A stretch of 32,212 nucleotides of DNA from Sulfurovum sp. (GTDB taxonomy: Bacteria > Campylobacterota > Campylobacteria > Campylobacterales > Sulfurovaceae), in NCBI GenBank assembly GCA_027071315.1, contig JALSUP010000079.1, positions 1-32,212 of the forward strand, read 5' to 3'. Positions 6,380 through 21,633 of this stretch are shown here, piece after piece (the stretch's first letter is position 1; the number at the start of each line of letters is the position of its first letter). The notes under the pieces were generated by a model that was not told the origin of the DNA, did no database searches, and was given only the letters and a program-made list of their open reading frames with translations. A program made the position numbers and the translations under genes.

Positions 6380-6774
6380 AATTAATTTTCTTTACTTAGA
6401 TATCCACTTATTTTACTTGTGGCGTTGTTTCTCTCTTCATTTTTTTAGAAAAAACGAAGCAAAAAATCGTCTCTGCTCTCGAATCGCTGCGCTTTCAAGG
6501 GCGTTCACAGAGACAGGTAGAGCAATTTAATGGCTTGGCTTTCGCCAGATGTCAGAGATAATAGAAACTATATTGCATACTACGGGAATAACTAATGCCT
6601 ATAGAAATTTCATTTGAAGTAAAAACACATTCAACACGCCAGCAGTTTGTGGTTTTTTCTTTTTTGGTTACTTCTTTCTTTTTTTGCGCATTGCAAAAAA
6701 GAAAAAAGTAATGAAGACAAACAACGCCACAGTTCCAATAAAGAGGAAACAAAAATAAACAATAGAAAATTAAT
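6380..6774. repeat. Gene-free inverted-repeat element (MITE-like) after tpiA
   Basis: The 524-bp stretch 6345-6868 holds no convincing gene. Two related arms face each other: 6380-6440 and 6711-6774. They share, in order, ATTAATTTTCT, a spacer of 26 or 32 bp, the perfect 13-mer TGTGGCGTTGTTT (6418-6430; inverted at 6719-6731) and TCTTCAT. Inside is a ~20-bp imperfect hairpin (6668-6711) rich in T then A, and GTCTCTG / CAGAGAC arms around 6470-6513. A 38-codon frame from 6596 has no convincing features. I infer a dispersed non-coding element; copy number elsewhere is unknown. Confidence 0.55.
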
Positions 6775-11306: not shown

Positions 11307-11319
11307 TACATTGTTTCGC

Positions 11320-11341
11320 GTAGGGTGCGTAATCACGCACC
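11320..11341 (+). repeat. REP-like hairpin, left member of an inverted pair
   Basis: GTAG then GGTGCGT-AATC-ACGCACC, a perfect 7-bp stem, preceded by CGC. It lies 13 bp after the recombinase stop and faces the copy at 11394-11415. Confidence 0.75.
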
Positions 11342-11393
11342 ACATAATCAAATATGCATCAGATAAAACATATGCCGAAAGGACAAACAAAAA

Positions 11394-11415
11394 GGTGCGT
11401 GACTACGCACCCTAC
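11394..11415 (-). repeat. REP-like hairpin, right member of an inverted pair
   Basis: On the minus strand GTAG then GGTGCGT-AGTC-ACGCACC, a perfect 7-bp stem identical to its partner except in the loop. The TAG within the GTAG foot is the stop codon of tilS. Two REPs in opposite orientation about 50 bp apart make a BIME-like pair between convergent genes. Confidence 0.75.
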
Positions 11416-12404
11416 GCGGGAAGATTGCGCGGGTCTATACCTTCCTGAAAACAATACGCTCTTATTTTACTGGGAATTTTTTGAATCCGGCATTTTTCTT
11501 TAAATTTTTTAGGCATGACGATATCTAGATACGGTGCAATATAAATAAATTCCCCCTGTCTCTCAATTGCCCACTCCTCACCGATCACCAGTGAATCTTC
11601 TTTGCCAATTTCTTCTCTCTGTGAAGCAGATAGCAGATAGCCTAAATTTTTTAAGGCAAGGTCTATAGCTTTTGTCTTGCTCTCTTGTGTGTACAGTTTA
11701 ATAATACGTAATTGCTTTTCACTATAAATGACTTCAAACCCTTTTTCCAATATGGCTTTATCATTTCTAATATACTCAAAACTACGAGCGATCCCTTCTT
11801 TAAATTCAGTGATCAAAGGATCGGAAAACGTTTTTCTGAAACGGTTGCGTTCATACTTTTCATTACTGTTGCTTTCATCTATAAAATAGGGATGTTCATG
11901 AGCTTTCAGATATTCAACTAACTCTTCTTTGCTGTAGGGTAAAAGTGGGCGTATAAGAGTATACCCCTCTCGCTGACTGACCTCTTCAAGTCCAAGGAGT
12001 TCTGACACCCCTGCACCTTTGGTCAAACGCATTAGAAACCATTCCAGCTGGTCATTGAGTTGATGAGCTGTCAGCAGCGTGTTGTAGCCCTGTGTTTTGA
12101 TCAGGTCTTCAAAATACTTATAACGAAAATTACGGGCATTCTGCTCAAAGTGGGAGGTGAATTTGGGTGCTTTGACTGTATGACAGGTCAAATGATGTTT
12201 TTTTGCCAGGGCATAAGCATGTTCTTCTTCTCTATCTGAATTTTCTCGGGTTCCATAATTCACTAAAGCGATGTCAAAAGGGATCTTATTTTCTAAAAGT
12301 AAAAAGAAAAGGGCAGAGGAATCTATTCCTGCTGAGAATGCAAGGAGATTCTTTTTTTGAATGAGAAATGAGAAATGAGAAATGAGAAATTTTTTATTTA
12401 GCAT
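11412..12404 (-). CDS. tilS: tRNA(Ile)-lysidine synthetase
   Basis: Converts C34 of tRNA-Ile(CAU) to lysidine so that it reads AUA. The N-type ATP pyrophosphatase loop is seen as L-A-F-S-A-G-I-D-S-S (residues 21-30). Its second position is Ala where the family has S-G-G-x-D-S. The T-A-H-Q-L-N-D-Q-L-E motif and the R-N-x-x-R motif are present. At 330 aa it is the short form lacking the full E. coli C-terminal domain. The N-terminus (residues 6-14) is encoded by heptanucleotide repeats plus an A7 run. It overlaps the S23 gene by 11 bp, and its stop lies in a REP. Confidence 0.93.
   Translation of the reverse strand: MLNKKFLISHFSFLIQKKNLLAFSAGIDSSALFFLLLENKIPFDIALVNYGTRENSDREEEHAYALAKKHHLTCHTVKAPKFTSHFEQNARNFRYKYFEDLIKTQGYNTLLTAHQLNDQLEWFLMRLTKGAGVSELLGLEEVSQREGYTLIRPLLPYSKEELVEYLKAHEHPYFIDESNSNEKYERNRFRKTFSDPLITEFKEGIARSFEYIRNDKAILEKGFEVIYSEKQLRIIKLYTQESKTKAIDLALKNLGYLLSASQREEIGKEDSLVIGEEWAIERQGEFIYIAPYLDIVMPKKFKEKCRIQKIPSKIRAYCFQEGIDPRNLPA
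12361..12388 (+). repeat. Heptanucleotide array ATGAGAA x4
   Basis: Four perfect tandem copies of ATGAGAA on the plus strand (TTCTCAT in tilS sense) encode part of the TilS N-terminus. The unit is 7 bp, so a change in copy number would shift the tilS frame. The same heptad, in opposite orientation and degenerate, is on the other side of the S23 gene. Confidence 0.9.
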
Positions 12405-20376: not shown

Positions 20377-20406
20377 AGTGATAAAAAATGCTCATAGGTG
20401 GTTTTT

Positions 20407-20745
20407 ATGGAAAAGAAAATAAAAGAGTCAGTAGGCACCCTGCTGGCACACATCATTAAAATAGATAACAGAGACGTTGCAAAAGAGGCACCGCTTTTTT
20501 GTGAGATCATGGGACAGAATTTTGACTGTTCTCAAGAAGAGGCAGAAAACTTTTTGTATGCCATGATGAATAAAGAGTATGATCTTGATGGACATATTGC
20601 CATTATTAATGATGCCCTCTGTGAAGATAAACTCTCAAAGTTCCATCTTTTGGAGCAGTTGAACCATATTATCTATTCCGATACGATTTCAGAAGAAGAT
20701 TACAAAGTATTTGAAGATATCAAAGAACGACTGTTTGCATGTTGA
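20407..20745 (+). CDS. Small TerB-like helical protein
   Basis: 112 residues, all predicted helical and acidic. The N-terminal V-G-T-L-L-A-H-I-I-K-I-D-N-R-D-V-A-K-E stretch resembles the first helix and acidic loop of TerB-like/DjlA-type domains (L-L-A-x-I-A-K-A-D-G...E). The Y-D-L-D-G-H and I-Y-S-D-T-I-S-E-E segments would then be the later helices. TerB-like domains are linked to tellurite resistance and membrane-associated complexes; no specific role can be given here. ATG at 20407 is chosen because AGGTGG precedes it; an upstream GTG would add three residues. It separates gpmI and fabG, which are adjacent in Campylobacter. Confidence 0.7.
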   Translation: MEKKIKESVGTLLAHIIKIDNRDVAKEAPLFCEIMGQNFDCSQEEAENFLYAMMNKEYDLDGHIAIINDALCEDKLSKFHLLEQLNHIIYSDTISEEDYKVFEDIKERLFAC

Positions 20746-20754
20746 CATTTTGCT

Positions 20755-20843
20755 GATTGATTCAATCATACTCCTGCACGATGCAAATGGCGGAGCCACC
20801 CCTCTGGGGACGGTGCATCGTTTGTCGCATGATTGAATCAATC
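20755..20843. repeat. Nested palindromic element with 15-bp terminal inverted repeats
   Basis: Perfect arms GATTGATTCAATCAT (20755-20769) and ATGATTGAATCAATC (20829-20843) enclose a second perfect pair, ACGATGCA (20778-20785) and TGCATCGT (20814-20821), and a core CCCC-TCT-GGGG (20799-20809). The whole 89 bp can fold into one long interrupted hairpin. No open frame. It could be a small MITE or REP-type element, a structured RNA or a strong transcript end. Confidence 0.65.
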
Positions 20844-20889: not shown

Positions 20890-21633
20890 ATGAAATTTAC
20901 AGGATCTAACGTACTGGTTACCGGTGCAAGCAGAGGGATAGGTGCACAAATAGCAAAAACATTGGCAGAGATGGGTTTGAAGGTATGGGTCAATTTTCGT
21001 TCCGGAGAAGCAGAAGCCGCAGCGGTTAAAGCGGAGATCGAAGCCGCAGGCGGAAAAGCGGAGATCATCGGTTTTGATGTGAGTGATGAAGCTGCTTTTG
21101 TGGCTGCCATGAAGCAGATCGTTTCAGAAGACGGTGAGTTGGCTTACCTTGTGAACAATGCAGGTATTACCAAAGACGGTTTGGCCATGCGTATGAAGAG
21201 TGAGCAGTTCATGGATGTCATTGAAGCGAACCTCAAATCTACGTTCATCGGTTGCCGTGAATCTTTGAAAGTGATGCGTAAGAAACGTTTTGGTTCTGTT
21301 GTCAATATTGCTTCCATCGTAGGTGAAACAGGCAATGCCGGGCAGACAAATTATGCTGCTTCCAAAGGCGGTACCATTGCCATGACAAAGTCATTTGCCA
21401 TTGAAGCAGCGACCTCCGGCATACGTTACAACACGATCACTCCGGGTTTCATTGCCACAGAGATGACAGCGGTGCTTAAAGATGAGGTCAAAGATGCCTT
21501 CACCGCAAAAATACCAATGGCACGTTTTGGTGAACCTAGAGAGGTGGCTGAAGCAGTTGCTTTCCTGCTTTCTGATCACGCTTCGTACATTACTGGTGAA
21601 ACCTTGAAAGTCAATGGCGGGATGTTCATGTAA
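20890..21633 (+). CDS. fabG: 3-oxoacyl-[acyl-carrier-protein] reductase
   Basis: NADPH-dependent reductase of fatty-acid elongation, short-chain dehydrogenase family. The cofactor loop T-G-A-S-R-G-I-G is at about residues 11-18 and the N-N-A-G motif at about 89-92. The catalytic tetrad is completed by Ser (N-I-A-S-I-V), Tyr and Lys in Y-A-A-S-K. Length 247 aa is standard, and the C-terminal V-N-G-G-M-F-M is classic. AAAGGG precedes the ATG. acpP, a common next gene, is not downstream here; a two-component system is. Confidence 0.96.
   Translation: MKFTGSNVLVTGASRGIGAQIAKTLAEMGLKVWVNFRSGEAEAAAVKAEIEAAGGKAEIIGFDVSDEAAFVAAMKQIVSEDGELAYLVNNAGITKDGLAMRMKSEQFMDVIEANLKSTFIGCRESLKVMRKKRFGSVVNIASIVGETGNAGQTNYAASKGGTIAMTKSFAIEAATSGIRYNTITPGFIATEMTAVLKDEVKDAFTAKIPMARFGEPREVAEAVAFLLSDHASYITGETLKVNGGMFM

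Follow-up and report, generated by a model that had tools for sequence, protein, structure and literature searches.

The 89-bp palindromic structure at positions 20755-20843 of the analysed Sulfurovum sp. DNA (the window, a stretch of 32,212 nucleotides) is best read as one short-form member of a family of mobile, non-coding hairpin repeats that is scattered through the genomes of Sulfurovum and related Campylobacterota. According to this reading, to which we give a probability of about 60% as a whole, the repeat resembles REPs and MITEs, is inserted through single-stranded DNA at the replication fork, and owes the rewriting of its arms and their continued pairing to template switching, to selection or to both. 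The window palindrome is ordinary as an intergenic repeat and unusual in the behaviour of its arms.

The window palindrome belongs to a mobile repeat family

The element lies between a TerB-like gene (20398-20745, + strand), which ends 9 bases 5′ of it, and a fabG-like gene (20890-21633, + strand). The former matches Pfam TerB with E = 2e-4 and 21.9 bits, slightly below the cut-off of 24.4; the latter matches Pfam short-chain dehydrogenase families and is conserved in 73/78 genomes of the genus. The left outer arm (GATTGATTCAATCAT, 20755-20769) and the right outer arm (ATGATTGAATCAATC, 20829-20843), both given on the + strand as are all parts of the element below, are perfect complements with 15/15 positions paired, so that the coordinates and perfect ends reported in the preliminary description were confirmed; the near-palindromic arm reported there, ATTGA-T-TCAAT, is present on the left. 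Perfect arms of at least 15 bp with a spacer of at most 100 occurred in none of 60 shuffled windows, where the longest arm was 13, and the fold z-score was −4.45 for the strand as read and −6.85 for the complementary strand, in agreement with the earlier judgement that the structure is too ordered for chance. Both inner stems described earlier were also found, but the view that three nested stems share one axis was refuted by the fold, which is branched. P1, formed by the outer arms, is followed by an asymmetric internal loop with ACTCCTGC on its 5′ side (20770-20777, conserved in the 16-copy alignment) and TTGTCGC on its 3′ side (20822-20828, near-invariant), then by the 8-bp stem P2 (ACGATGCA, 20778-20785, paired with TGCATCGT, 20814-20821), and then by two adjacent hairpins, P3 (TGGC-GGA-GCCA, 20788-20798) and P4 (CCCC-TCT-GGGG, 20799-20809, with a 4-bp stem 20799-20802 / 20806-20809 around TCT).

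A core of ~58 nt constitutes the conserved structured module, and four copies of it were found in the source genome: that of the window, one after an hsp20 gene (L002), one after a DUF167 gene (L003), and a fourth, recovered by covariance model search, on contig C84. The arms of all four differ. Using a covariance model built from 16 copies, family members were detected in 32/78 Sulfurovum genomes, some of which contain over 20, and in 8/73 genera sampled in the order. A pattern for the inner core yielded 55 matching stretches among 84,980 species genomes, all of them from Sulfurovum or other Campylobacterota/Epsilonproteobacteria. Viral contigs scanned by pattern for the core and the inserted module gave no hits, neither the short nor the long form had an Rfam 15 match near any gathering score, and no published description of the family was found in the open-access literature. 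Judged from the aligned copies, the conserved part of the element is the core and not the perfect ends, a distinction invisible from one sequence alone. A search of the genome and its relatives for the ends had been proposed earlier; the ends proved unconserved, and it was the core that recurred as a family. The outcome named there as refuting, a single unconserved copy with no compensatory changes in relatives, was contradicted by copy number, conservation and compensatory changes alike.

Two classes of copy were distinguished. In the first, many copies with shared arms occur per genome (GGTTTCACTCGAT in the G054/G048 clade and G247, GCTTTCACTCGAT in G102, others in G069 and G236), the longer ones carrying an additional outer stem. 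In the second, which includes the window copy, there are few copies per genome, their arms are unique, and most lie directly after a stop codon between co-directional genes. The occupation of several loci in distant species is consistent with long residence and perhaps with a function. Since its arms are unlike any others found, the left-arm sequence GATTGATTCAATCAT being absent from all other copies found, the window copy is probably an old and immobile resident, a relic with intact structure.

Mobility was shown by orthologous sites that lack the element, readable at the hsp20 locus, between TerB and fabG and in one G054/G048 pair, together with near-identical copies within some genomes. The G054/G048 pair (C90), the only one with a readable insertion boundary, indicated an insertion of roughly 130 bp with no target-site duplication seen, few sites being comparable; pairs from G247 and G102 gave no sharp boundaries, as their intergenic regions are too diverged. 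Several copies are long forms, in which a second repeat of ~85 nt replaces P3. This structured repeat (TGAGAAGCG..AGCCGTGAAGGC, ~85 bp) was also seen outside the long forms, singly or in tandem, in many of the 78 genomes (L194-L223, for example L219, L201, L207 and L205), often starting at a TGA that is the stop codon of a gene, such as fabG in L219. In other families of the order (L045, L262, L263) the inner module GCAAACGGC..GCCGCCC was observed without the ACTCC/TTGTCGC loop and with A/T-rich stems instead. In genome G037 (L108, L144) a family copy precedes TerB, and on the downstream side of that gene, at the position that corresponds to the window copy, there is a variant that keeps the outer shell (CCTCCGG..TTGTCGG) but differs inside.

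Pairing of the outer stem is kept while its sequence is free

Among the 16 aligned copies, changes on both sides were found in 14/15 pairs of P1 and in 4/8 pairs of P2, the second covarying helix. For P1 the covariation score was 0.519; shuffles reached 0.129, and slid-partner controls no more than 0.123. Copies were grouped into orthologous clusters by their neighbouring genes. In clusters B, C and D the two arms of a copy match each other at 10-13 of 13 positions, the left arms of orthologs are 41-44% identical, and arms taken from different orthologs pair at ~5/13. In cluster A, a close clade, the arms are common to the copies and carry single unpaired substitutions. The hsp20-hsp20 locus has the same arms in G002 and G038, unrelated arms in G004 despite 96% identical Hsp20, no element in G024 and a long form in G003. 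These comparisons show that P1 keeps its pairing while its sequence is free. They suggest that arms are inherited for a while and, over longer times, are either replaced wholesale or succeeded by re-occupation of the locus; the two alternatives, arm rewriting and re-insertion at hot spots, are not fully separable, which counts against the preferred reading.

At the DUF167 locus the left arm includes the last codons and stop of the gene, which recur in inverted form as the right arm, over 21 bp with one mismatch in G043 and at 15/16 positions in G000; the arms in G004 have decayed. Two tandem copies whose arms differ from each other follow DUF167 in G043 (L010 1392-1572), and in G038 (L391) the 3′ end of DUF167, which reads through, contains an apparent core-deleted remnant with arms still nearly complementary.

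When template switching occurs during replication, one arm can be turned into an inverted copy of the other, so that a perfect stem is created or repaired in one event (PMC8794818), and in E. coli it makes quasipalindromes more perfect (PMC7202029). Such a process would explain both whole-arm replacement and arms derived from host flanks more simply than would many paired point changes. As in quasipalindrome template-switch mutations, one arm would become the inverted copy of the other and several stem bases would change per event (PMC7202029, PMC8794818); unlike in those, the arms of a mobile repeat would be the substrate. The conserved core folds into P2 and two small hairpins beneath the outer stem P1. 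In the mechanism we propose, copies would be inserted through fork single-stranded DNA, on the strand that templates lagging synthesis, movement probably depending on a candidate enzyme acting in trans. After insertion, the folded nascent strand would copy one flank onto the other by template switching, rewriting the arms with local sequence and restoring their pairing, and selection for the hairpin may help to keep them paired. A bolder version, in which the element has neither a protein nor fixed ends, the structured core alone is transmitted through fork single strands, and each copy builds matching arms from inverted host flank, is tentative and has the odds against it.

Copies are preferentially oriented along replication

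GC skew marks the leading strand and was used to judge the leading-strand side at each copy, the core strand being that with ACTCC..TTGTCGC. In four genomes the core strand lay on the GC-skew leading strand in ~70/82 copies. All 24/24 copies examined in G247 had it on whichever strand is richer in G across the ~20 kb around them (p = 1.2e-7); the counts were 18/23 in G054 and 16/21 in G236. For G102, a single contig of 2.10 Mb with a clear skew switch, a count by hand gave 12/14, the exceptions lying at 264 kb and at 1,148 kb, the latter adjoining the switch. The window copy agrees with the bias (skew +0.068). Genes around the G247 copies are about evenly split in direction, nor do the copies follow the orientation of the genes next to them. 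Since IS200/IS605 elements insert into the lagging-strand template (PMC6006769), the bias fits insertion of this kind, or else orientation-dependent loss of hairpins; outside G247 it is partial and could come from such loss. Seven near-identical Y1 transposase genes of the IS200 family in G102, mostly with tnpA on the GC-skew leading strand, might serve as an internal positive control.

A REP-like element mobilised by a Y1 HuH transposase of RAYT or IS200/IS605 type, and thus a non-canonical REP/REPIN family, would be expected to show the same strand bias. Y1 transposases were detected in 19/33 tested genomes, among them G247 with one RAYT-like gene. We regard this explanation as unlikely, although it survives better than the other alternatives. 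The RAYT-like proteins of G247 and G054 (256 aa) scored 68 and 74 against the NCBIfam REP-associated tyrosine transposase cut-off of 80, and the RAYT-like Y1 genes (L344, L358, L342, L343) are flanked by an inverted repeat of their own, GGTCAGGTGAT..ATCACCTGACC, unrelated to the palindrome, for which reason a RAYT was rejected as owner of the element. No covariance-model match was found within ~1.5 kb on each side of 30 Y1 loci, no GTAG tag adjoins the stem, and several element-bearing genomes, some of them incomplete, had no Y1 match. The presence of Y1 transposases did not account consistently for copy number across genomes, and derivation from the IS200-family copies of G102 was discarded, as only chance matches and no common ends were seen. 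No mobilising enzyme tied to the repeat was found, the RAYT-like genes examined carrying another repeat.

Arm mismatches bear on a different possibility, a cis-acting mRNA structure (an intercistronic stabiliser, processing site or attenuator) whose P1 is kept by compensatory selection. Its attractions are the strong covariation, the occupation of the same loci in several species and the position of most unique-arm copies directly after a stop codon between co-directional genes. Among 29 non-redundant arm pairs, however, the mismatches on the core strand were 25 A.C against 6 G.T (p = 9e-4), a count that leaves out most mismatches of the innermost P1 column (39 A.C), which belong to the shared shell. 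Wobble pairs therefore fall on the complementary strand. In unique-arm copies that strand runs opposite to the flanking genes, a point against the stem being maintained for their mRNA. The complementary strand also folded better in 101/121 copies with RNA parameters and in 79 with DNA parameters; since copies share the core and are not independent, the non-redundant mismatch count was preferred to fold stability. Two readings fit the pattern: a structure formed by the other strand, as DNA or as antisense RNA, or selection that disfavours stable hairpins where the lagging-strand template is exposed. With A.C rather than G.U mismatches, with G247 copies that disregard gene direction and respect that of replication, and with patchy presence at loci, an mRNA structure ranks next and is likewise improbable; an RNA element, as suggested earlier, keeps a low probability in view of the strongly covarying helix pairs.

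A small MITE had been suggested as well, and of the three earlier options a small mobile repeat is the best supported: there are many copies, empty orthologous sites and related families in relatives. A classical MITE, with fixed terminal inverted repeats and a DDE transposase, would likewise explain why non-coding copies bounded by terminal inverted repeats are scattered about and, in some genomes, nearly identical, yet it is very improbable. The palindrome ends are not MITE-like terminal repeats, since their sequence varies by site and only complementarity is kept; arms are conserved only inside recent families, orientation follows replication, and the one readable pair showed no target-site duplication. 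Only the location between two genes speaks for an intrinsic terminator or a chance palindrome. Both were refuted by the family and covariation results; a degree of order beyond chance and the lack of any terminator-like site also tell against them, the absence of a T-run having been noted already in the preliminary description.

Relation to known hairpin repeats

The mobile hairpin repeat preferred here shares with REP/REPIN elements (BIMEs) and their RAYTs a multi-copy, intergenic, dispersed, hairpin-forming and non-coding nature and a patchy presence between relatives, and the use of single-stranded DNA by RAYTs can be likened to the single-strand route proposed for it. It differs in being longer and branched and in having locus-specific arms. 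It has no GTAG-type tetranucleotide tag beside a conserved short stem, its outer stem and flanks being unconserved, and no RAYT gene flanked by its copies was found at the Y1 loci. GTAG and CGTC REPs were reported for Sulfurovum sp. NBC37-1 in a 2013 survey (PMC3733652). The CGTC-tagged ones, from the same genus, are also intergenic palindromes without a dedicated transposase, but they are small, with conserved stems and a CGTC tag, and their sequence is unrelated to that of the element (PMC3733652). Non-autonomous hairpin elements derived from IS200/IS605 are similar in that structure outweighs coding and orientation is biased relative to replication, as in the four genomes counted above; unlike these, the element has free arm sequence and no ends in common with the G102 IS200-family copies. 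The R′/R″ boxes of integron attC sites have no counterpart in the unconserved outer stem.

The combination of a structured core, paired arms of free sequence and an orientation linked to replication is unusual, and it is found here in an ecologically abundant vent genus. Occupied and unoccupied sites provide a natural series with which to ask if long bacterial hairpins are made and mended by template switching, and the family offers a test of which enzyme moves non-coding hairpins through single-stranded DNA.

Two other inverted repeats were observed in the window. A further perfect 15-bp repeat, of the kind CGTAGGGTGCGT..ACGCACCCTACG, lies between convergent genes at 11317-11418, and a 14-bp repeat rich in A- and T-runs (TTACTTCTTTCTTTTTT / AAAAAAGAAAAAAGTAA region) occupies an intergenic position at 6653-6707.
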